Positions 3,789 to 13,081 of a stretch of DNA of 41,880 nucleotides are shown piece by piece. Source of the stretch: Actinomycetota bacterium (GTDB lineage Bacteria; Actinomycetota; Acidimicrobiia; Acidimicrobiales; Ilumatobacteraceae). Position numbers and translations under genes: made by a program. A model generated the notes under the pieces. It saw nothing but the letters and a program-made list of their open reading frames with translations, was not told where the DNA came from and did no database searches. Numbering within the stretch: position 1 is the first letter of the stretch; the number at the start of each line of letters is the position of its first letter. Location: contig WLIV01000031.1 in assembly GCA_009702045.1 (NCBI GenBank), positions 1 to 41,880 of the forward strand. Direction: 5' to 3'.

Positions 3789-4640
3789 ATGGGACTCGAC
3801 ATTTTCGGTTTCGCGGGCAAGCGCGTCTTGGTGGTGGGCGGCGCCACCGGCATGGGTGCGGCTGCGGCGAAACTTGCACTCGGCCTCGGTGCCGAGGTCG
3901 TGGTGATGGACATCGCACCGATCACGCTCGCCGGCGTGACGGCCGTGCACATCAACCTGTGCGACCGCGCCGGGATCGACGAGGCATTGTCATCCATCAG
4001 CGGGCCGATCGACGTGGTGCTGGCGTGCGCCGGCGTTGCCGAGGGCACGCCCGGTATCGAGAAGGTCAACTTCATCGGTCACCGACATCTCATCGAGCGA
4101 CTGCTCGCCGACGACCGCCTGCCGCGAGGTTCGACGATCGGCATGGTCTCGTCCATGGCCGGGCTGGGGTGGGAGCCCGAGTTGCCCCTGCTGTGCGAGT
4201 ACCTCGACACACCCGACTTCGAGTCGGCGGCAGCCTGGATCGAGGCGCACCCGGGTACCGCCAACTACCGATGGAGCAAGCAGGCGATGAACGCATACGT
4301 CGCCCGGCAAGCGTTCCCGCTACTGCAGCGCGGCATCCGCATCAACGCCATCCTTCCTGGACCCACCGACACCCCGCTCGCGCAGGCGAACGCCGAGCAG
4401 TGGTTGGGTTTCGGCAGCGACTACCGCAGCGACGCCGGCATCCCCCCGGCCAGCGCAGAGGATCAGGCGTACCCCCTGCTGTATTTGTGCAGCCGGGCCG
4501 CCAACTACATCAGCGGCGTCACGCTCGTGGTCGACAACGGAATGCTGGGGGCCGGTCTCACACAGGCCTACCCCGCTGCCACCCCGGCGGCTGGCGCGCT
4601 GCTGGGCCGCATCGGTGAACTCGTCTTCGGCACCAACTGA
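3789..4640 (+). CDS. Short-chain dehydrogenase/reductase
   Basis: 283 aa from the ATG at 3789, supported by AGGGGGA 4 nt upstream; a GTG at 3756 overlapping the tetR stop would add 11 non-conserved residues. The Rossmann nucleotide site is GGATGMGAAAAK near the N terminus, followed by VVVMDIA. The dehydrogenase triad is visible: Ser in IGMVSSMAG and Tyr/Lys in NYRWSKQAMN (YxxxK). The substrate loop after INAILPGPTDTP and the end GVTLVVDNGM are typical of SDRs near 3-alpha-hydroxysteroid dehydrogenase/carbonyl reductase; an extra segment before the Tyr (DTPDFESAAAWIEAHPG) is also seen in that subgroup. Cofactor NAD(H) is favoured by the acidic residue (MD) after the second strand. It lies downstream of the TetR gene and may be under its control. 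Confidence 0.9.
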   Translation: MGLDIFGFAGKRVLVVGGATGMGAAAAKLALGLGAEVVVMDIAPITLAGVTAVHINLCDRAGIDEALSSISGPIDVVLACAGVAEGTPGIEKVNFIGHRHLIERLLADDRLPRGSTIGMVSSMAGLGWEPELPLLCEYLDTPDFESAAAWIEAHPGTANYRWSKQAMNAYVARQAFPLLQRGIRINAILPGPTDTPLAQANAEQWLGFGSDYRSDAGIPPASAEDQAYPLLYLCSRAANYISGVTLVVDNGMLGAGLTQAYPAATPAAGALLGRIGELVFGTN

Positions 4641-4646
4641 CGCCAG

Positions 4647-5438
4647 TCAGGGTGCGACCGTCACCGCCGGTGGTTCATCCATCTCGGCGCGCACGTCCGT
4701 CAGCGATGCGAACGGGACCGTGATGAAGCCGCGCTGCGGCCGATCGAGGTCGAACGACACGAACAGGATCATGATCACCACGATCGACGCGACCAGCGAA
4801 GTCGTGGCTCCACGCCCGAGCAAGCTGAGATAGAGCGCAAGCACTCCGATCGCAACCGCACCGCCGACGACCTGCAGGAGCAACACCGTGCTCGGCACCC
4901 GATCGAAGAGCGACGCCACACGTTCACCGTTGACGTCGATCGTTTCGTTCAACGTCTCGATGTACAGGCGCGGTGCAGTACCTGCCGGATCTGCGGCCAA
5001 CGCCACACCGGCGGCAGCCCACAGCTCGCGTTGCAGCTCGCCGAGGCGCGACCGATCGGCGCGGAACTCAGCGTTGGTGGGCACCTGATCAGCCAGGTCG
5101 ATCGCCCGGCCGGTGTACTCCTTCAACAGATCAAGTGAGGTCGAACGCGCTGGCTCGGACAACATCTGCGCACGCAGGTACGTCGTGCCGATCGCGTTCG
5201 CCTCCTTCACGACCAGTTGCCGACGCATCTCGTAACGACCCACCGACATCGTCAGCCCGAACGCCAAGAGCAGACCGACCAATCCCAGCAGCGTGCCCTG
5301 CACCACACCGACTGAGTTGTGACCAGCCTCGGATCGACCACGCAGACGTGCACCCGCCAAGATCCCGAGGCCAGCGCTGCCGAGCACTGCCAGCGCCAGC
5401 ACGATGAACAGCAGCGGCGAACTCAGGCTCACGAACAT
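4647..5438 (-). CDS. DUF4239 (bestrophin-like) membrane protein
   Basis: A 263-aa membrane protein with two N-terminal hydrophobic segments (about residues 8-28 and 45-66), a soluble helical middle, and two C-terminal segments (about 185-205 and 212-230). Family-like features are the GTLLGLVGLLLAFGLTM helix, RRQLVVKEANAIGTTYLRA and, in the last part, SFDLDRPQRGFI. That architecture and the FDLDRPxRG motif match the DUF4239 or bestrophin-like family. The function is not established; bestrophins are anion channels, but the relation is structural and should not be read as proof. A GGGGAAG ribosome site supports the ATG at 5438. It is convergent with the SDR gene, with 6 bp between stop codons. 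Confidence 0.75.
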   Translation of the reverse strand: MFVSLSSPLLFIVLALAVLGSAGLGILAGARLRGRSEAGHNSVGVVQGTLLGLVGLLLAFGLTMSVGRYEMRRQLVVKEANAIGTTYLRAQMLSEPARSTSLDLLKEYTGRAIDLADQVPTNAEFRADRSRLGELQRELWAAAGVALAADPAGTAPRLYIETLNETIDVNGERVASLFDRVPSTVLLLQVVGGAVAIGVLALYLSLLGRGATTSLVASIVVIMILFVSFDLDRPQRGFITVPFASLTDVRAEMDEPPAVTVAP

Positions 5439-5554
5439 CGGACACTTCCCCAGCTTGGTCTCGGTTCGCCGATGCTATCCATCGAGAGGACGAGGCCCCT
5501 GCGTGGCGCAACCGACTACGTTGTCGGCGGGGATTCCTGGAGGGAGGACAGTCG

Positions 5555-6766
5555 ATGTACGACGTCATGCAAGGTGTTCGGGTAATCGAAGTCGCAGAGC
5601 ACACGTTCGTGCCCGCAGCAGCCATGATCCTGGCCGACTGGGGTGCCGACGTGATCAAGATCGAACGCGTCGTCGGGGGTGGCGATGCAGCGCGCAGCAT
5701 GCGCGCCATTCAGCGTCCTGGCCTGAAGAGCAACCCGTACTTCGAAGCTGCCAACCGCGGCAAGCGCGGGTTGGGCCTGGACCTCACCAAGGCCGAAGGC
5801 CGCGAGTACCTGTACAAGTTGATCGAGGGTGCCGACGTGTTCATCACGAACATGCGCGACGACGCCTGCGTCAAGTTGGGGATCACTGCTGCCGACGTGC
5901 AGAAGATCAACCCGAAGATCGTCTACGCCAGCGGTACCGGCTACGGCCGTCGCGGCCCACTGTCCGCCGCCCGCGGTTTCGACATGCCGTCCTCGTGGAC
6001 TCGCAGTGGCTCGGCGTTCGTGCAAGCACCCGCAAACGGTGGACCGCCGCCGAGCCAGCCTGGGTCGGTGGGCGACCTCACCGGCGGCGCCACGCTCGCA
6101 GGCGCGATCTGCGCCGCGCTGTTCCGCCGCGAACGCACCGGCAAGGGCGCCATCGTCGATCACGCGCTCTACCAGATGGGCACGTACATCATGAGCCAGG
6201 CACTCATCCAGGCCTCGATGGGTTGGAAGGCCGCCGGCCCGATGCCGGCCCGTGAGGCCATGCCCGACCCGATGCTGAACTGGTACAAGACCAGCGACAA
6301 CCGCTGGCTACTGCTGTGCCTGCTGTACGAAGCCTGGTGGGAAGACTTCGCCACGAAGGTCGGCCGACCCGAGTGGATCACCGACCCGAAGTTCGTCGAC
6401 TCTGCGGCGCGCGCCGCCAACTGCGTCGAGATGATCGCCCAGCTCGACGCCATCTTCGCGAGCCAGACACTCGCCGAATGGGAAGCCCAGTTCGCCGAGC
6501 TCGAGGGCGTGTGGTCGCCGGCCAAGAGTCCCGAGGAGGTCATCGCCGACCCGCAGGCATTGGAGAACGGGTTCGTCACCCCGGTGACGTACCCCGACGG
6601 CGACCACTACCTCACCGGCGCTTCCCCCGCCCAGTTCGACGGCCGCCCGGTCGGTGAGCTGAAGGCCTCGCCCACCCACGGCGAGCACACCGACGATGTG
6701 ATGCGCGAACTCGGCCTGACGGACGAGCAGATCACTGCCTTGAAGTCGCGCGGCATCATCATCTGA
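5555..6766 (+). CDS. CaiB/BaiF family (class III) CoA-transferase
   Basis: 403 aa, the standard length of class III CoA-transferases, which move CoA between acyl-CoA and a carboxylic acid through an enzyme-bound aspartyl anhydride. The N terminus GVRVIEVAEHTFVPAAAMIL, the LADWGADVIKIE motif, the NRGKRGLGLDL segment and TGYGRRGP are all family signatures. The catalytic aspartate is most likely the one in GAIVDHALYQ (about residue 202). The C-terminal part (AEWEAQFAELEGVWSPAKSP) matches the small domain. An excellent ribosome site (GGAGGGAGGA) fixes the ATG at 5555. Substrate specificity (fatty acid, carnitine-like, bile-acid or terpenoid CoA) cannot be read from sequence; the nearby SDR and crotonase fit acyl-CoA catabolism in general. 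Confidence 0.92.
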   Translation: MYDVMQGVRVIEVAEHTFVPAAAMILADWGADVIKIERVVGGGDAARSMRAIQRPGLKSNPYFEAANRGKRGLGLDLTKAEGREYLYKLIEGADVFITNMRDDACVKLGITAADVQKINPKIVYASGTGYGRRGPLSAARGFDMPSSWTRSGSAFVQAPANGGPPPSQPGSVGDLTGGATLAGAICAALFRRERTGKGAIVDHALYQMGTYIMSQALIQASMGWKAAGPMPAREAMPDPMLNWYKTSDNRWLLLCLLYEAWWEDFATKVGRPEWITDPKFVDSAARAANCVEMIAQLDAIFASQTLAEWEAQFAELEGVWSPAKSPEEVIADPQALENGFVTPVTYPDGDHYLTGASPAQFDGRPVGELKASPTHGEHTDDVMRELGLTDEQITALKSRGIII

Positions 6767-7080
6767 ACAGTCGCTGACGACCAGGACAGATCGTCAAGCC
6801 AGTCATAATGATGTGACATTCTCCGTCATTTCTGACGCCATTTGGTCACTCTGCGTGCTTTGCATTCGCTGTGCGTCTAGGTCATCTGGCCTATTTGTGA
6901 TGTTATGGCTTGCTTTATGGATTCCGGACGGCTTGAGTACATCCCGCTGGACAGCACGTCCGGCAGGCGAAGTGATGACGTCCCGACTGCATATTGGTCG
7001 CCCTGGTCGGGACCGAGCGAGTGGCGAACCCGACGCCTGTGCACTACCCCAGCCAAATACACAGGACAAAGGAAACGAAA
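6767..7080 (+). other. 314-bp intergenic region with promoter and long leader
   Basis: No convincing gene is seen here. The first part holds a weak stem TGACGA/TCGTCA (6775-6780 and 6791-6796) that could end the CoA-transferase transcript, then an AT-richer stretch (about 6800-6922) with several GTCA/TGAC half-sites, probably promoter DNA, though no strong -35/-10 pair is clear. From 6924 the sequence folds into two perfect hairpins (separate entry). A ribosome site AAAGGA lies 7 nt before the ATG at 7081. Confidence 0.6.
6924..7013 (+). ncRNA. Candidate structured 5' leader, two tandem hairpins
   Basis: Two consecutive perfect inverted repeats lie in the leader of the SipW-type secreted protein. 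Hairpin 1 is CCGGACG (6924-6930) with CGTCCGG (6957-6963), loop 26 nt. Hairpin 2 is GTCCCGAC (6980-6987) with GTCGGGAC (7006-7013), loop 18 nt. The stems are GC-rich while the surroundings are AT-rich for this genome. Both loops contain a C triplet (CATCCCGC, TCGCCCTG). I match it to no riboswitch class I know; it might be a regulatory leader, an sRNA, or paired protein sites in DNA. Confidence 0.4.
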
Positions 7081-7545
7081 ATGAAGATCACCAAGAAGAA
7101 GCTCGCCATTGTCAGCACCGTCGTCGTCGCCTCCCTGGGCGCCACGGCCGCCTTCGCTTACTGGACCACTGGTGGTTCGGGTACCGGTACTGCCGACGCT
7201 GGCTCGACGGCCACCGCGCTGACGCTGCACGCCAACTTCAGCGATGGCCTGCTGCTCGGCCACCATGAGACCGTCACGGTCACCGCAGATGGCAACGGCA
7301 CCGACGATGTGTCACTCGGCGGCAAGACCCTGTACTTCACCGTCTCGACCGATGACGCCGGCTGCACCGCCGCCGACTTCACCCTGCCGAGCGCGACCGC
7401 CACTGCTGGCACTGTCGTCCACGCAGCGGATGTGGGCGTCGAGATCGGCTCCGCCACGTTGACGATGATCTCGCGTGACCTGGTGAACCAGGACGGCTGC
7501 ACGGGCGCGACGGTCACCGTCAACGTCACCACCACGGCCCCCTGA
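7081..7545 (+). CDS. Secreted protein with SipW-type signal peptide (camelysin/TasA-like)
   Basis: 154 aa from the ATG at 7081 (AAAGGA ribosome site). The N terminus is a lysine-rich MKITKKKLAI followed by a hydrophobic core and the cleavage context AAFAYWTTGGSGTGTAD. The AYWT-x-GSGTGxA form after the core is what is seen in proteins cut by SipW-like (ER-type) signal peptidases, such as Bacillus TasA/camelysin relatives. The mature part is about 125 aa, threonine-, valine- and glycine-rich, predicted all-beta, with two cysteines (AGCTAADF and QDGCTGAT) that may pair. It has no catalytic motif and is probably a surface or matrix-type protein. It stands alone between a long structured leader and a strong terminator, so it is a monocistronic unit, possibly highly expressed. 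No SipW peptidase gene is in the window. Confidence 0.75.
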   Translation: MKITKKKLAIVSTVVVASLGATAAFAYWTTGGSGTGTADAGSTATALTLHANFSDGLLLGHHETVTVTADGNGTDDVSLGGKTLYFTVSTDDAGCTAADFTLPSATATAGTVVHAADVGVEIGSATLTMISRDLVNQDGCTGATVTVNVTTTAP

Positions 7546-7557
7546 TCTGATTCGTTG

Positions 7558-7591
7558 CGTGATGGGGGCAGGGCAACCTGCCCCCATCACG
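7558..7591. terminator. Strong hairpin terminator with GCAA tetraloop
   Basis: Perfect 15-bp stem (7558-7572 with 7577-7591) closed by a GCAA (GNRA) tetraloop, 12 nt after the stop of the secreted-protein gene. No U-tract follows; termination is inferred from the exceptional stem and its place. Confidence 0.85.
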
Positions 7592-7765
7592 GCGATTCCC
7601 GACCGCGTTGGGACGACCCGTGTAATTCAGGCGGCGCCGAGACCTTTACCAACGCCGGACCAGTGATCATCACCTTCATCGCCAGCTGATCCGCCAGACC
7701 TGGCCAGAACGCCCCCAGGAACCGTTAGGCTGCCATATCCCGATCCATCGGGTTCGGAGGACATC

Positions 7766-8035
7766 ATGGCCACTACGAAGAAGCGCACGACGAAGTCGAT
7801 CGCCGACGGGCTGATCGCCGCCGACGACACCAGCCCGAGCGCCACGTTGGCACGTGAGATCCTCGCTGACTACAGCGACCTCACGCCGTCCGTGATGCGC
7901 ATCGTGAGCGCCGATCTCAGCGAAGGTCAGCGTCAGCGAGCACTCGAGCAGTTTCGCAACTCGCTCGGGGCAATCGACGATCCGAACCGTGACCCGCGGT
8001 ACGCGATCGCCAACTGCGGCCCTGCCGAGCACTGA
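7766..8035 (+). CDS. Small hypothetical protein
   Basis: 89 aa with a good ribosome site (GGAGG, 6 nt before the ATG at 7766). The N terminus is basic and threonine-rich (MATTKKRTTKS), followed by a predicted all-alpha region including TLAREILADYSDLTPSVMRI and GQRQRALEQFRNSLGAI. No membrane segment, signal peptide or known motif is visible. I do not recognise the family. It converges on the hydrogenase operon, with 18 bp between the stop codons, and is preceded by about 170 bp without a gene that holds a possible TAGGCT -10 box (7727-7732). Coding is supported by the ribosome site and frame composition, not by homology. Confidence 0.6.
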   Translation: MATTKKRTTKSIADGLIAADDTSPSATLAREILADYSDLTPSVMRIVSADLSEGQRQRALEQFRNSLGAIDDPNRDPRYAIANCGPAEH

Positions 8036-8053
8036 CCACAACGCCCTCGTCAG

Positions 8054-8536
8054 TCAGGCGAGCGTGTCCCTCAGCGCCAGCGACAGAAACGCGACTGCCG
8101 CGTCCACACCCGCGTCGACGTCTGCGCTGAGCCCCACACCGTTGTCGAAGTCGACACCCTCGATGCCGAGGATGCGGAGATCAGTCGGTAGCAGATCGAG
8201 CGCGCCAGCAAGATCGACCGCCTCGCTCAACCCCATCAGGTGACCGCCGCCGAGGCGCTTCCCGGTGTCGTCGATGTCGGCCAGGTGCGCCGCATCCACC
8301 TCATGGATCGAACCTGCTGGCCGACCGCTGCGCACGGCATCGACGATCCACACGTGCCGCGAGCCCTCCCACGCCTGCACCAGACGCACCGACTCGCCGT
8401 CGAGTTCCACCAAGCGGACCCGCGGGTCGGCACTCCACTGCGTCGCCAGTCGTTGCAGCACTGCGGCTGCAGCGCCGTCGTCACGGCGATACGGGTTACC
8501 GATACCGATCACCGTCACGAGCGGTGCTGCGGTCAT
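8054..8536 (-). CDS. NiFe-hydrogenase maturation protease (M52/HycI type)
   Basis: 160 aa from the ATG at 8536, which overlaps the stop of the large-subunit gene as ATGA. M52 peptidases remove a short C-terminal peptide from the nickel-loaded large subunit. The signature GIGNPYRRDDG lies at the N terminus (the second acidic residue takes the place of the nickel-binding Glu), a second acidic residue is in WIVDAVRSG, and the histidine is in GGGHLMGLSEAV; together these match the metal-sensing residues of HybD-type proteases. It is the last gene of the operon and should process the neighbouring large subunit, which carries a 9-residue tail after its last metal-ligand motif. Confidence 0.92.
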   Translation of the reverse strand: MTAAPLVTVIGIGNPYRRDDGAAAAVLQRLATQWSADPRVRLVELDGESVRLVQAWEGSRHVWIVDAVRSGRPAGSIHEVDAAHLADIDDTGKRLGGGHLMGLSEAVDLAGALDLLPTDLRILGIEGVDFDNGVGLSADVDAGVDAAVAFLSLALRDTLA

Positions 8537-9840
8537 GTACGGATCACCCGCATGTCGAGGAAGTGGGTGGCACACGAGATGCACGGGTCGTAGTTGCGCA
8601 CAGCCTGCTCACACAGGTGCTCCAGCGCCGCGTCGTCGAGGTGTAACGAATGCTCCACCAGGTGCATCAGGTCGTGCTCGATCGACGGTTGGTTCTGTGA
8701 CGTCGGCGGCACGATCTGGGCGGTGACGATGCGCCCCTCGGCGTCGATCTCATAGCGGTGGAACAGCATCCCGCGCGGGGCCTCGGTCCAACCACAGCCG
8801 ACACCGGCGCGTGGTTCGACCGGCACGAACGATCGGGCCGGCGGCGTGTAGCCCTCAGCGATCGCGAGAGCGACCTCGCACGCGTGCACTGTCTCCACTG
8901 CGCGCACGACGATGCTGCGGAACGGGTTGCGCTCGGCGGCCGTCAGTCCCACCTCGGCAGCGATCGCCGCCGCGTGGGGCGCAAGGTGATCACTGTTCAG
9001 CGCAAAGCGGGCCAACGGGCCAACCATGTAGTCGCCACCGACGAGCATCCGCCCGTGCAGCGCAGTGGAGTGCTCCACATGCTCCTCAGCGAAGTGATTG
9101 CGCCATTGCGACGGATCTATGTCGAGCCCGCCCGTGCTGACCAGGCGCTCACCCAACATCGGGTACTCCGTGGGGTGACGCAGGGCGACGAGCGTGGTGT
9201 GATCGGGGAGTTCGTGCTCCGGCATGGGGAACGTGGCGACCCACCGCACGATCTCCAGCGACGCCTCCAGTGCCCAGCGCAACTCGGTGGCCAACTCGTG
9301 CATGGAGACCGGCGACGGCGCGCTGTAGAACCCGCCGACCTTGACGTTCACCGGGTGTACTGCCCGGCCACCAACAACCTCGACGATGCGATTCCCGATC
9401 TTCTTCAGTCGCAGACCGCGTTCCACCTCAGCCCGGTGATCGGCGGCAAGTGCGATGCCGTTGGGGTAGCCGAGAAAATCGGGAGCATGCAGCAGGTGGA
9501 TGTGCAATGCATGGCTTTCGATCCACTCGCCGCAGTAGAGCAGTGAGCGCAGCGTGCGAATCTCGTCGTCCACCTGCACGCCCAAGGCATGCTCGATCGC
9601 CTGACAGGCACTCATCTGGTATGCCACCGGGCAGATACCGCAGATACGCGCGGTGATGTCGGCCGGTTCGGTGTACATGCGTCCGCGCAGGAAACCTTCG
9701 AAGAAACGCGGTGGCTCGAAAATGCGCAGTCGCACATCCGTGAGCGCCCCCTCGTGGATCTCGACGATCAGGCCACCTTCGCCCTCCACGCGGGCCAGTG
9801 CATCCACCTCGAAACGACGGGCACGATGCTCGTGGGTCAT
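8533..9840 (-). CDS. hyhL: Group 3b NiFe-hydrogenase large (alpha) subunit
   Basis: 435 aa, carrying the NiFe active site. The N-terminal ligand motif is RICGICPVAYQMSA, with C67 and C70 as nickel ligands; the C-terminal motif is DPCISCATH (C420 and C423). The last nine residues (FLDMRVIRT) follow His426 and are the expected tail removed on maturation. Length, motif forms and operon partners match bidirectional NAD(P)-linked cytoplasmic hydrogenases of group 3b, which exchange electrons between H2 and NAD(P)H and in some archaea also reduce sulfur. The start ATG overlaps the small-subunit stop (ATGA). In aerobic actinobacteria such enzymes are linked to redox balance under low oxygen; that is family knowledge, not seen here. 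Confidence 0.95.
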   Translation of the reverse strand: MTHEHRARRFEVDALARVEGEGGLIVEIHEGALTDVRLRIFEPPRFFEGFLRGRMYTEPADITARICGICPVAYQMSACQAIEHALGVQVDDEIRTLRSLLYCGEWIESHALHIHLLHAPDFLGYPNGIALAADHRAEVERGLRLKKIGNRIVEVVGGRAVHPVNVKVGGFYSAPSPVSMHELATELRWALEASLEIVRWVATFPMPEHELPDHTTLVALRHPTEYPMLGERLVSTGGLDIDPSQWRNHFAEEHVEHSTALHGRMLVGGDYMVGPLARFALNSDHLAPHAAAIAAEVGLTAAERNPFRSIVVRAVETVHACEVALAIAEGYTPPARSFVPVEPRAGVGCGWTEAPRGMLFHRYEIDAEGRIVTAQIVPPTSQNQPSIEHDLMHLVEHSLHLDDAALEHLCEQAVRNYDPCISCATHFLDMRVIRT

Positions 9841-10625
9841 ACATCCTCTTTCGCACGGAACTGCACACGTTGCGCGCCGTCGGCGAACACCGGCGCTGCG
9901 GCATTGAACGTCAACAACGTGCGCACCAATTCACCATCATCGAGCCCGGTTGCGCGCCATGTGGCGTGCAACGCGTCGACGTTCGCCGCCTCGGAGGGCC
10001 CGAAGCAGCCGAAGCATCCACGCTGGAGCGACGGGCACAGTGCCTGACAACCGGCATGAGTGACCGGGCCGAGACACGCGGCGCCATGCGCCACCAACAC
10101 ACACGCGTTGCCGGCCTGTTTGCACTCGACGCACACGCTGTGGGACGTGACCGATGGTCGGCGTCCGGCCAGCAGCGCGGTGATCGTTGCCAACAACTGC
10201 TCCTTGGACACGGGACAGCCGCGCAGCTCGAGGTCGACCTTCACGTGATCGGCGATCGGTGTGCTGGTGGCGAGCGTGTGGATCCATTCGGGTCGGGCGT
10301 ACACGGCAGCGGTGAACGCGCCGACGTCGGCAGTGTTGCGCAGTGCTTGCACACCTCCGGCCGTCGCACAGGCACCGATGGTGATCAACAGACCCGAGCG
10401 TTCACGTACGTCGCGGATCCTCTCGGCATCGTGTTCGGTCGTGATCGAGCCCTCGACCAGCGAGAGGTCGTAATGGTCGAGCAACTCGCTCGGTCCGGCC
10501 TCCAGGAACATCCGCAGGTCGAGTGCCGCGGCGATCGCCAACAACTCGTCCTCGCAGTCGATGATCGTCAGTTGACAGCCGTCGCACGAGGCGAACTTCC
10601 AGACGGCAACGGTAGGTCGGGTCAT
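9837..10625 (-). CDS. hyhS: Group 3b NiFe-hydrogenase small (delta) subunit
   Basis: 262 aa from the ATG at 10625, which overlaps the stop of the gamma-subunit gene (ATGA); the frame runs further upstream but only inside that gene. It carries electrons from the active site through iron-sulfur clusters. Proximal-cluster cysteines are in ASCDGCQ (C14, C17), IGACATAGG and RGCPVSKEQL. A cysteine-rich C-terminal region, from CVECKQAGNACVLV through GAACLGP and LCPSLQRGCFGCFGP, supplies ligands for two more 4Fe-4S clusters. There is no Tat signal, so the enzyme is cytoplasmic, as expected of group 3. Confidence 0.94.
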   Translation of the reverse strand: MTRPTVAVWKFASCDGCQLTIIDCEDELLAIAAALDLRMFLEAGPSELLDHYDLSLVEGSITTEHDAERIRDVRERSGLLITIGACATAGGVQALRNTADVGAFTAAVYARPEWIHTLATSTPIADHVKVDLELRGCPVSKEQLLATITALLAGRRPSVTSHSVCVECKQAGNACVLVAHGAACLGPVTHAGCQALCPSLQRGCFGCFGPSEAANVDALHATWRATGLDDGELVRTLLTFNAAAPVFADGAQRVQFRAKEDV

Positions 10626-11467
10626 CGGCCTCTCACCTCCAACAGTCGTTCGACGTGATCCCAGCGCACGACCGCGCCGTCGCGACACAGCAACTGCGAA
10701 CCCAGTTGACAGCGGCCACAGTGGCCGATGCCGCAGTGCATGTTCCGCTCCAGCGACACCCAGATATCCGATGGCTGCACACCGCACCCGACGACCGCAC
10801 GGGCGCCGGAGGTCATCATCAACTCTGGTCCGCACACGAACGCCATCTCGTGGCGCTCAGCCAACCGCTCGAGCACGGCGGTGGTGGTGCCCACCGCGCC
10901 GTGCCAGCTGCGACCGGCGGCATCGACGGTGAGATGCACACGAGCGCCTGCAGCGGTCCACCGCTGCAGGTCGTCGGCGTACAGCAACTGTGGCTGCTCG
11001 CGGGCACCAACGACCACGGACAACCGCGTCGGATCCTGGGCAACCTGTGCGTCGATCGCCATCCGCAGCGGCGCGAGCCCCAGCCCCCCGGCCACGACCA
11101 CCAGGTCGCGTCCGGCAGCGGCAGCTAAGGGCCAGGCGGTACCGAATGGTCCACGCAGCCCGAGCACATCGCCCACCGTTGTTCCGACCACTGCCGTACT
11201 CGTGGCGCCGACGGCGCGAACGGTGAGCAGCACCTCGCCGGTCGGCAGTGTGCGGCTCACCGAGATGGGAATCTCGCCCACCCCGAATGCCCACACCATC
11301 AGGTACTGCCCGGGCAGCACCGATGCAAGGCCAGCTGCGACCGGCACCAACGTCAGCGTGGTCACATCGACCGTCTCGCGGCGACTGTGCGTCACGCGGT
11401 ACGGCGTCGGCTCCATCGGCTCGACCGCTGGCATCGTGCCCAGGTCAGCGAGCGAGTCCATACACAT
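10622..11467 (-). CDS. hyhG: Hydrogenase gamma subunit, FAD/NAD(P)-binding diaphorase
   Basis: About 281 aa. It belongs to the ferredoxin-NADP reductase-like family that includes sulfhydrogenase gamma and the PyrK subunit of dihydroorotate dehydrogenase. An FAD-binding barrel comes first (ISVSRTLP near the isoalloxazine site), then the nucleotide-binding motif VVVAGGLGLAPLRMAI, the FVCGPELMM segment near the C-terminal side, and a C-terminal 2Fe-2S cysteine cluster CGIGHCGRCQLGSQLLC. It passes electrons between the hydrogenase clusters and NAD(P). The first ATG (11467) overlaps the upstream gene by 23 nt; an ATG at 11461 is equally possible. Confidence 0.92.
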   Translation of the reverse strand: MCMDSLADLGTMPAVEPMEPTPYRVTHSRRETVDVTTLTLVPVAAGLASVLPGQYLMVWAFGVGEIPISVSRTLPTGEVLLTVRAVGATSTAVVGTTVGDVLGLRGPFGTAWPLAAAAGRDLVVVAGGLGLAPLRMAIDAQVAQDPTRLSVVVGAREQPQLLYADDLQRWTAAGARVHLTVDAAGRSWHGAVGTTTAVLERLAERHEMAFVCGPELMMTSGARAVVGCGVQPSDIWVSLERNMHCGIGHCGRCQLGSQLLCRDGAVVRWDHVERLLEVRGR

Positions 11468-11906
11468 CCACCAGTTGGTGACGAGCGGCCTCCAGCCGCG
11501 AGGCCAGTACGCGAGTGAGTTGACCGGCTACGTGGTACCCGAGTTCGTGATCGACTGCGCACTCCGCACGCAAACGGGGCGCATCGATCGCCAGCAAATG
11601 CAGATCGTCGAGGGCGACGACATCGAAGTGCCACCGATGTGGTTCAACGAACCACGACCACCCGATCACGTCACCGGAGTGGACGGTGGCCACCACGAGC
11701 GGATGACGGTCTGCGGCATGGATCTCGATACCGGCACGGCCATGGATGAGCGCGTAGAAGACGTCGGCGTCGGCGCCCGTGCGTGCCAGCCATTCACCAG
11801 CCGGCAGGTCGCGTACGAAGGCGAATGCGGCGAGCGTGTCGATGCGCCGCTCGCTGAGGCCAGCGAAGAAGGGGTGTGTGGCGAGTGACTGACGGATCTC
11901 GTTCAT
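11445..11906 (-). CDS. Stand-alone cyclic-nucleotide-binding-fold protein in hydrogenase operon
   Basis: 153 aa from the ATG at 11906 (ATGA overlap with the beta-subunit stop). A cNMP-binding beta-roll is clear: FFAGLSERRIDTLAAFAFVR, then LPAGEWLARTGADADVFYAL and SGDVIGWSWFVEPHRWHFDV. There is no helix-turn-helix, so it is not a CRP-type regulator. The phosphate-binding cassette differs from cAMP-binding proteins: the site of the conserved Glu reads GWSW and the Arg-Ala pair reads WH, so cAMP or cGMP is probably not the ligand. The GWSW/RWHFD form is seen in a subgroup of cNMP-fold proteins next to redox enzymes. Its place between the beta and gamma genes suggests a regulatory or structural role in the hydrogenase, possibly sensing another small ligand; this is inference. 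Confidence 0.85.
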   Translation of the reverse strand: MNEIRQSLATHPFFAGLSERRIDTLAAFAFVRDLPAGEWLARTGADADVFYALIHGRAGIEIHAADRHPLVVATVHSGDVIGWSWFVEPHRWHFDVVALDDLHLLAIDAPRLRAECAVDHELGYHVAGQLTRVLASRLEAARHQLVDVYGLAR

Positions 11907-13081
11907 GTGCGGAAGTCTCCTGCTGAGTTCAGCCGTGCTCGCTCGGCGACGAGCGCTGCGGCCTCCTGGACGATGTCGATCCCGGCGGGGCACCACACAG
12001 TGCAGCGACCGCAGCCGACACATCCGGTAGTGCCGAACTGTTCCTGCCATGTCGCCAACTTGTGGGTGAGCCACTGCCGATAGCGATCAGCAGTGGTCGC
12101 GCGCACCGCACGACCGCCGAGCGCCGAATGGTCGAGCTGAAAACACGATGCCCACGACTGCTCGCGCACCGTTTCGACGACGGCCGAACCGTCGGAGGTC
12201 AACGCGGTGTGGTCGGAGAACGTCGAGCAGAAGCATGTGGGGCAGACCATCGTGCAGTTGCCGCACGAGAGGCACCGCTCGGCCACCACCTGCCAGTGCG
12301 GCGAATCGTCGGCATCCGCCAACAGCGTGGGCAGGGCAGCGCCGTCGAGGCGCACACCCATGGACTGCGTCGCCGCCTCAGCCACCGAGCGAACCGCAGC
12401 CAGATCATGTTCGTCGACAGCAGTCGCCGCTAGACGGATGAGTACCTGTGCGCCGCGCTCGCTGCCAGCTTCGGCGACCAGTCGGTGCCCGTGGTGGTCG
12501 GCGGCTTCGGTGATCCGTACGTCGTACCCGGTGCCCGGCTGTGGGCCGCCGCCCATCGAGGTGCACCAGCACGTCGCGGCAGGGGTTCCGCACGTGACAG
12601 CGACAATGAACGTGCCCGCCCGTCGTTGCGCATACCGAGGGTCGGGATGCGACGGGTCGAGTTCGACACGATCGAGTACTGCGAGCGCGCGGAGTTCACA
12701 GTCGCGCACGGCCAAGAAGGCGAACGGTCGCTCTGGCGGCGCCGGCCGGGTGACCGCGAACGACCCATCAGTGCGGCGGATGCGCAGCACCTCCTGACGA
12801 GCCGGGAACACGTACCGCTTCCACGACTCCGCGCCAGGGGTCCAGGCGAAGCGCAGACCGCTGTCGTCGTGGTGCAACCGCCAGCGGCCGGGAGCCTGTT
12901 CGACGGTGACGCCCGTGGGCAGGTCATCACCAGACATCACGTCGTCGTACTCCACCACTCCGTTGCGCACGACCGGTCCGAGGACCCGGTAGCCGTCGGC
13001 TGCCAGCAGTCGTACGAGTGCGTCGAGTCCCACCCTGGGGTCGAGCCGTACGGCAACCGGAGCGTGGGAACCTGTCATCAC
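11903..13081 (-). CDS. hyhB: Hydrogenase beta subunit, 4Fe-4S dicluster protein
   Basis: 392 aa. Two ferredoxin-type CxxCxxCxxxCP motifs lie in the C-terminal half: CLSCGNCTMVCPTCFC and CVGCGRCTVWCPAG; the N-terminal part has no such motif and is typical of the sulfhydrogenase beta/4Fe-4S dicluster family. It links the gamma diaphorase to the hydrogenase dimer. First gene of the operon. The start is taken at 13081 (MMTG...), with an ATG one codon later equally possible; no TANNNT box stands at leaderless spacing, so transcription may begin further upstream or read in from coaE, whose stop is 58 bp away. Confidence 0.93.
   Translation of the reverse strand: MMTGSHAPVAVRLDPRVGLDALVRLLAADGYRVLGPVVRNGVVEYDDVMSGDDLPTGVTVEQAPGRWRLHHDDSGLRFAWTPGAESWKRYVFPARQEVLRIRRTDGSFAVTRPAPPERPFAFLAVRDCELRALAVLDRVELDPSHPDPRYAQRRAGTFIVAVTCGTPAATCWCTSMGGGPQPGTGYDVRITEAADHHGHRLVAEAGSERGAQVLIRLAATAVDEHDLAAVRSVAEAATQSMGVRLDGAALPTLLADADDSPHWQVVAERCLSCGNCTMVCPTCFCSTFSDHTALTSDGSAVVETVREQSWASCFQLDHSALGGRAVRATTADRYRQWLTHKLATWQEQFGTTGCVGCGRCTVWCPAGIDIVQEAAALVAERARLNSAGDFRT

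Follow-up and report, generated by a model that had tools for sequence, protein, structure and literature searches.

The class II c-di-GMP riboswitches of Clostridioides difficile are described as ON switches that precede the genes of a collagen-binding adhesin and a thioester protein as well as a pilin operon (PMC11477304, PMC7865049). In Paraclostridium, tandem c-di-GMP-II riboswitches lie before COG4932 surface-anchor genes (PMC9481103). The related c-di-GMP-II-GAG family, RF03169, appears as the name of a model in PMC12452182. Our search of the literature, mostly outside subscription papers, found no description of an RF03169 surface-protein regulon. The GAG variant itself was reportedly described by Weinberg and colleagues in 2017. 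We report here a real member of this already known family in the leader of a gene for a small, probably secreted protein from the Acidimicrobiia, together with an association of the family with surface-protein genes across the class that is worth following.

The sequence analyzed, called the window throughout, is a stretch of 41,880 nucleotides from a member of the Ilumatobacteraceae (GCA_009702045.1, contig WLIV01000031.1). In it, a gap of 314 nt (6767-7080) separates the end of a CoA-transferase-type gene (5555-6766, with a PF02515 match) from an ATG at 7081, which opens a plus-strand gene (7081-7545) for a 154-aa protein with an N-terminal hydrophobic segment followed by a predicted beta-rich domain. 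The original prediction placed two perfect stems of 7 and 8 bp, 16 nt apart, in this gap, and both are present: stem 1, CCGGACG/CGTCCGG, at 6924-6930/6957-6963 with a loop of 26 nt, and stem 2, GTCCCGAC/GTCGGGAC, at 6980-6987/7006-7013 with a loop of 18 nt. The pair by itself is not strong evidence, because 500 dinucleotide shuffles of the gap included 20 with two stems of at least 7 bp, one of them of at least 8 bp, and loops of at most 30 nt, and because folding stability is ordinary. The stretch 6924-7100 folds no better than shuffles (z -0.27), and excess stability was rejected as evidence for structure in the leader. Stem 2 is lifted above chance by an Rfam match and by covariation.

Other features of the neighborhood were recorded in passing. 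A scan of positions 4000-10000 of the window for sigma-70-type promoters found none. The block GGCCTATTTGTGA at 6888-6900 is identical across the three closest leaders, and palindromes resembling GGGCCG..CGGCCCAT were seen by eye 5' of the aptamer in several other RF03169 loci; the strict form GGGCC(N)2-4GGCCC occurs in 5 of 78 upstream stretches compared with 0.2 in shuffles. On the minus strand, open reading frames (ORFs) at 8054-12900 resemble, by eye, a NiFe hydrogenase cluster with its maturation protease and adjoin the riboswitch unit.

The sole Rfam match at curated cut-offs in the 41.9-kb window is RF03169, the c-di-GMP-II-GAG riboswitch, at 6959-7044 on the plus strand (50.2 bits against a gathering cut-off of 40, E 4.4e-07 for the window), covering the model in full from 1 to 86. 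The hairpins had been thought to match no riboswitch that could be named, a claim that this match overturns. RF01786, the model of c-di-GMP-II proper, misses its cut-off of 53.5 both in the window (43.5 bits) and in a second copy in the same genome (46.9 bits). The parts of the aptamer, all on the plus strand, can be laid out on the window. The 5' strand of P1 occupies 6963-6969 (CAGGCG at 6964-6969 plus one G-U pair) and is partnered by 7034-7040, and the P2 hairpin at 6980-7013, with arms 6980-6987 and 7006-7013, is the former stem 2. The pseudoknot strand TGGTCGCC in the P2 loop (6995-7002) pairs with 7023-7027 and 7030-7032, and the P1 3' strand takes up 7034-7041, of which 7036-7041 (CCTGTG) can alternatively pair with 7060-7065. 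The four outermost pairs of the model and one inner pair are non-standard here. The aptamer ends 36 nt before the ATG at 7081, and it is presumably transcribed together with the gene.

Covariation was assessed in an alignment of 68 of 78 aptamers from the family, order and class; L020, L024, L026, L028, L034, L041, L044, L049 and L051 were left out for insertions or an odd core and L071 as a near-copy of L070, other near-copies being retained. Standard pairs fill 89.4% of the cells of the whole structure, compared with 70.8% in shuffles; the rows were retrieved with the Rfam model and are to that extent biased toward its structure. Changes on both sides of a pair are seen in 348 cells, compared with 127 in shuffles (0/500), and affect 20 of the 26 pairs; since the alignment holds related sequences, these counts are of sequences and not of independent events. 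Sliding the structure by 1-3 columns lowers the paired cells to 29-45%. All seven pairs of P1 and all eight of P2 are changed on both sides, with 72.0% and 92.6% of cells paired, respectively. The pseudoknot is paired in 99.4% of cells and four of its eight pairs are invariant; one of its pairs is G-C in 43 of the 68 sequences and A-U in the other 25. An RF03169-type aptamer almost certainly lies in the leader, and its fold, its pseudoknot and its placement before the gene are established at the level of sequence.

Stem 1 fared differently from stem 2. Its 5' arm, CCGGACG in the window, reads TCTGTGG in the leader of a paralog on contig C15 of the same genome and TCCCCAG in that of genome G063. 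Over the three leaders 14 of 21 cells are paired, and four of the seven pairs are broken in at least one relative. We rejected stem 1 as a functional hairpin, as it is broken in both of the closest leaders. A better account of its 3' arm, as far as these alignments indicate, is a local plus-strand hairpin directly 5' of P1 (GCTGGAC-AGCAC-GTCCGGC, 6946-6952/6958-6964, with a 5-nt loop). This hairpin shares its 3' arm with stem 1 and has 20 of 21 cells paired with two compensatory pairs in three leaders only, and a covariation score as high was reached in 54 of 500 shuffles. Covariation at the level of the genus rests on three leaders because orthologs of the window protein are so few: three among 15 genus genomes, two of them in the genome of the window itself. 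The compensatory changes that were to be sought in both stems are found in stem 2, whereas stem 1 is broken in its nearest relatives. As for the self-contained, regulated unit that had been envisaged, a structured regulatory leader does precede the gene of a probably secreted protein, but it is not a pair of tandem hairpins.

The second RF03169 copy of this genome (C15:52816-52901, 53 bits) precedes a paralog 83% identical to the window protein. On the 3' side of that copy, a reading frame with Ig-like repeats recognized by eye stays open for at least 637 aa and continues past the end of the retrieved stretch (L003 8709-10619, contig C15), and two further ORFs with hydrophobic N-termini are found beyond the copy. 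At E <= 0.001, the genomes with RF03169 number 8 in the genus (of 15 sampled), 18 in the family (of 200), 71 in the order (of 298) and 80 in the class (of 296), and these samples overlap; the gathering cut-off is exceeded in 4, 10, 57 and 73 genomes, respectively. None of 14 control genomes had a match. We examined 80 loci, at most 30 per search, from a longer list of matches, the remainder of which were mostly lower-scoring. Two of the 80, L019 and L022, have low scores (30.4 and 30.9 bits) and no ORF for a secreted protein; they were taken as chance matches and dropped from all subsequent tests other than the control ORFs. One locus, L025, has a pair of same-strand aptamers with 236 nt between them (G266:C32 86073-86155 and 86392-86475), a possible tandem riboswitch, before a gene of the type of the window protein. 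In L078 and L079, the ORF directly 3' of the aptamer has only about 35 codons and by eye resembles a signal peptide alone, with HNWR or HGWR at its end, possibly a secreted peptide under riboswitch control.

A preference-free rule was used to choose the downstream ORFs, since the start-codon heuristic favors hydrophobic N-termini, and 67 of the 73 ORFs chosen in this way have an N-terminal hydrophobic stretch (6 fell below the hydrophobicity threshold, and 5 of the 78 loci gave no ORF under the rule). The same stretch is found in 22 of 215 control ORFs, which were picked mechanically at random places of the loci and of which many may not be genes. Protein families were scanned in 72 of the 80 loci, leaving out L019, L022, L036, L042, L050, L061, L079 and L078 (the last has no ORF of 60 aa), and many of the scanned ORFs are truncated at the 1500-nt flank. 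Pfam matches at E <= 0.001 among the 72 proteins include three SpaA-type models (7, 5 and 5), SdrD_B (6), camelysin PF12389 (6), subtilases (4), the phospholipase C C-terminal domain (4), LPXTG anchors (2) and one each of a thioester domain, a GH114 glycoside hydrolase and a prepilin motif. The NCBIfam matches listed for the same proteins, which cover the best 25 of 30 families, include TasA (2), SipW-type signals (2 and 2) and an LPXTG major pilin (1). The recurrence of the RNA before genes with hydrophobic N-termini is plain from these counts. RF03169 thus appears, from gene content, to be associated with surface-protein genes in the class, and much of the downstream set is what would be expected under c-di-GMP control.

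The window protein itself fits no named family. It had been called SipW-type, a label without support from the searches, in which it gave no SipW-type, TasA or PF12389 match up to E 1 and matched no other family model. A search of the genome for a SipW-type signal peptidase returned two TIGR02228 matches of 47.8 and 26.6 bits, below the cut-off of 51.85. The AlphaFold2 model is beta-rich and of middling confidence (mean pLDDT 70.3, pTM 0.66). With this model, Foldseek gave a best E of 0.017, for adaptin ear domains, and nothing at E <= 0.001; a TasA fiber stood at rank 32 with E 0.21. Comparison with the PDB found only generic folds (best VIA Z 6.5), and we claim no fold family for the protein. 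It shares 22-39% identity with six proteins behind other copies of the RNA, with five invariant columns over nine sequences; the six were picked by eye, and five belong to other families in the order, the sixth to a different part of the class. The RNA and this type of protein may therefore recur together. The protein is probably secreted, judging from its N-terminal segment, and a role in adhesion or biofilm formation would suit it. Behind the gene, a plus-strand hairpin of 15 bp with a 4-nt loop (7558-7572/7577-7591) bears out part of the claim of a strong terminator at the end of the unit; the hairpin at 7558-7591 exists, but no T run follows it.

The space between the aptamer and the start codon suggests how the switch would work. 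On the plus strand, a probable Shine-Dalgarno sequence, AAAGGA (7068-7073), read from the sequence, lies 7 nt before the ATG, and the segment CACAGG (7060-7065) ends two bases 5' of it. This anti-P1 segment can pair with 7036-7041 in the P1 3' strand. In an ensemble computed without pseudoknot and ligand, the helix 7036-7041/7060-7065 has a probability of 0.80-0.81 compared with 0.03 for P1; as isolated helices, P1 is the stronger, at -9.2 compared with -7.7 kcal/mol. Genome G063 has the same exclusive pairing arrangement with CACAGG as its anti-P1 segment, and in the paralog the segment is GCAGG, within the nearer Shine-Dalgarno-like GCAGGA. At low levels of the ligand, most likely c-di-GMP, 7036-7041 would pair with 7060-7065 and the loading of ribosomes would be hindered; when it is bound, the pseudoknotted aptamer and P1 would be stabilized, 7060-7065 would be freed and translation would be on. 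In 69 of 77 heuristic picks the aptamer and the start codon are separated by 14-60 nt, a distance that leaves little room for an intrinsic terminator, and in the window this gap contains no T run; both points fit translational control. A terminator-type platform was rejected, the sole terminator-like site in 4000-10000 being at 6878-6893, upstream of the aptamer; 2.5 such sites are expected by chance in the scanned region.

Complementarity between the P1 3' strand and the ribosome-binding region was compared across loci by swapping regions within groups. Pairing with a locus's own region averages -11.73 kcal/mol compared with -10.05 for swaps (0/500, z -6.0, n = 66), and the counts per group are 3, 4 and 0 of 2000 swaps. 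The 66 of 80 loci exclude, besides L019 and L022, those with an uncertain start codon or no ORF (L036, L042, L050, L061, L069, L078, L079) and those with a gap over 70 nt (L007, L008, L016, L028, L035). Against the coding DNA of its own locus the strand shows no excess complementarity (z 0.0), and neither does it against the upstream DNA (z 0.2). When the aptamer core served as a decoy strand, it scored z -3.1 with the ribosome-binding region (1/500) and z +3.4 with upstream DNA. Within the order group, the length of the longest exact helix does not clearly exceed that in swaps (57/300; 24/300 with G-U pairs), so that the test is not perfectly clean. Since the complementarity is specific to the locus when set against swaps, a general richness in C and G does not explain it. 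Accessibility of the Shine-Dalgarno sequence was computed, with folding that ignores pseudoknot and ligand, for 60 of the 68 aligned loci (gap 8-70 nt, recognizable Shine-Dalgarno). Forming the aptamer leaves it freer by more than 0.1 in 25 of the 60 and less free in 9 (Wilcoxon p 0.003). It rises in G063 (0.61 with the aptamer formed vs 0.41), falls for the segment scored in the paralog (0.46 vs 0.55) and does not change for AAGGA in the window (0.61 vs 0.61).

We consider it likely that a c-di-GMP-II-GAG riboswitch controls the translation of a small secreted surface protein and that ligand turns it ON. Our confidence in a translational ON switch in general is only a shade lower, and for this very window we favor it by a smaller measure. 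Both the ON direction and the choice of translation over transcription are our reading of the pairing potential. The same aptamer might instead work as an OFF switch or through transcription, for example by Rho-dependent termination in the leader, with the complementarity between P1 and the ribosome-binding region a by-product of G-rich Shine-Dalgarno sequences and C-rich P1 strands. The unchanged accessibility in the window would agree with this, Rho needs no T-run terminator and the core strand is also somewhat complementary, but the specificity of the complementarity to each locus (0/500 within-group swaps) speaks against a by-product, and the C. difficile class II switches are described as ON (PMC11477304); we judge such a mechanism unlikely. 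Far less credible, and in our view next to negligible, is that the two tandem hairpins as first drawn form a new functional element: both stems are perfect in the window, yet stem 1 is broken in both of the closest leaders and stem 2 is P2 of a known aptamer.

The identity of the ligand raises a further alternative. GAG has a catalogue entry of its own as a variant family, and the ligand can differ between variants; some c-di-GMP-I variants sense c-AMP-GMP (PMC7266159), and RF01786 scores below its cut-off in this genome. The variant could then sense another cyclic dinucleotide or related signal and not c-di-GMP. Against this stand three indirect points: many of the downstream genes are of the kinds that a c-di-GMP regulon would be expected to hold, the genome encodes ten GGDEF domains and sites resembling those of BldD lie beside many copies. 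A different ligand is accordingly rather improbable, somewhat more so than an OFF or transcriptional switch, and c-di-GMP is most likely the signal, judging from family membership, the gene set and the ten GGDEF domains.

The sites resembling BldD boxes raise the prospect of a second reader of c-di-GMP. The pattern CAC(N)5GTG, spaced like the BldD box, is present in 37 of 78 stretches of 150 nt upstream of the aptamers, a count that near-copies among the loci inflate, compared with 5.3 in shuffles. Of the 77 stretches taken 100-250 nt 3' of the aptamer, 12 contain it, as does 1 of 73 taken 450-600 nt 5' of the aptamer. Other CAC/GTG spacers from 2 to 8 occur in 3-12 upstream stretches; CAC(N)3GTG is also above shuffles (12/78 vs 5.1, 0/200), and CAC(N)6GTG (8; 29/200), the N4 and N7 forms (4 and 3) and an inverted decoy (4; 27/200) are not above shuffles in the upstream stretches. 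The published box TNAC(N)5GTNA occurs exactly in only 7 of 78, compared with 1.8 in shuffles (2/200 as high). A stricter nine-position form is matched at 8 or more positions in 13 of 78 upstream stretches compared with 1.7 in shuffles (largest 5 in 100), and in none of 77 coding stretches or 6014 other non-coding windows. In the window, the plus-strand site TCACTCTGCGTGC at 6846-6858 has one mismatch to TNAC(N)5GTNA. Genome G063 has an exact box at the same offset, and the paralog, which has none there, carries an exact box 25 nt 5' of its aptamer. Many sites of the class set sit 15-35 nt 5' of the aptamer and might be hairpins in the RNA, not operators.

A BldD homolog is encoded at G000:C45 (L088 1207-1722), the genome's one match to PF21179, the BldD-like C-terminal domain (56.1 bits vs a cut-off of 27). 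Its N-terminal HTH was recognized by eye only, and its c-di-GMP signature, RXD-X8-RXXD according to PMC4151990, is intact (RQD-FNGKVITV-RGDD). In Streptomyces, BldD with c-di-GMP acts as a repressor (PMC4151990). We tentatively raise the idea, which is at present doubtful, that c-di-GMP is sensed twice in succession at surface-protein genes of the class, first through a BldD-type operator at the promoter and then through a c-di-GMP-II-GAG riboswitch in the leader. If so, one second messenger would gate both the transcription and the translation of the same adhesins and fibers; should the upstream sites turn out to be BldD boxes, these genes would be a natural case of a single signal read twice per gene.

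With these results, an orphan secreted protein and an unannotated leader can be explained as probable parts of a c-di-GMP surface program. For a class sampled here from genome sequences only, they provide a list of adhesin, fiber and pilin genes, all open to testing with a single ligand, as well as a hypothesis for the switch, in which the P1 3' strand doubles as an anti-Shine-Dalgarno sequence. Among known systems, the RF01786 riboswitches of Clostridioides difficile (CD2831, CD3246, cmrRST and the pilin operon) belong to the same clan and also precede surface adhesins or pilins. They are described as transcriptional, apart from one that affects translation together with a group I ribozyme; the platform in the window looks translational, unlike most of these copies, and the phylum differs too. 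The tandem switches of Paraclostridium likewise have a surface-anchored output, in another phylum, whereas the window copy is single. With BldD of actinomycetes the genome shares a homolog and box-like sites, here putative, but BldD acts on DNA and not on RNA. Compared with the RF03169 type itself, the window aptamer shares the full-length match, P1, P2 and the pseudoknot, with no difference of kind.
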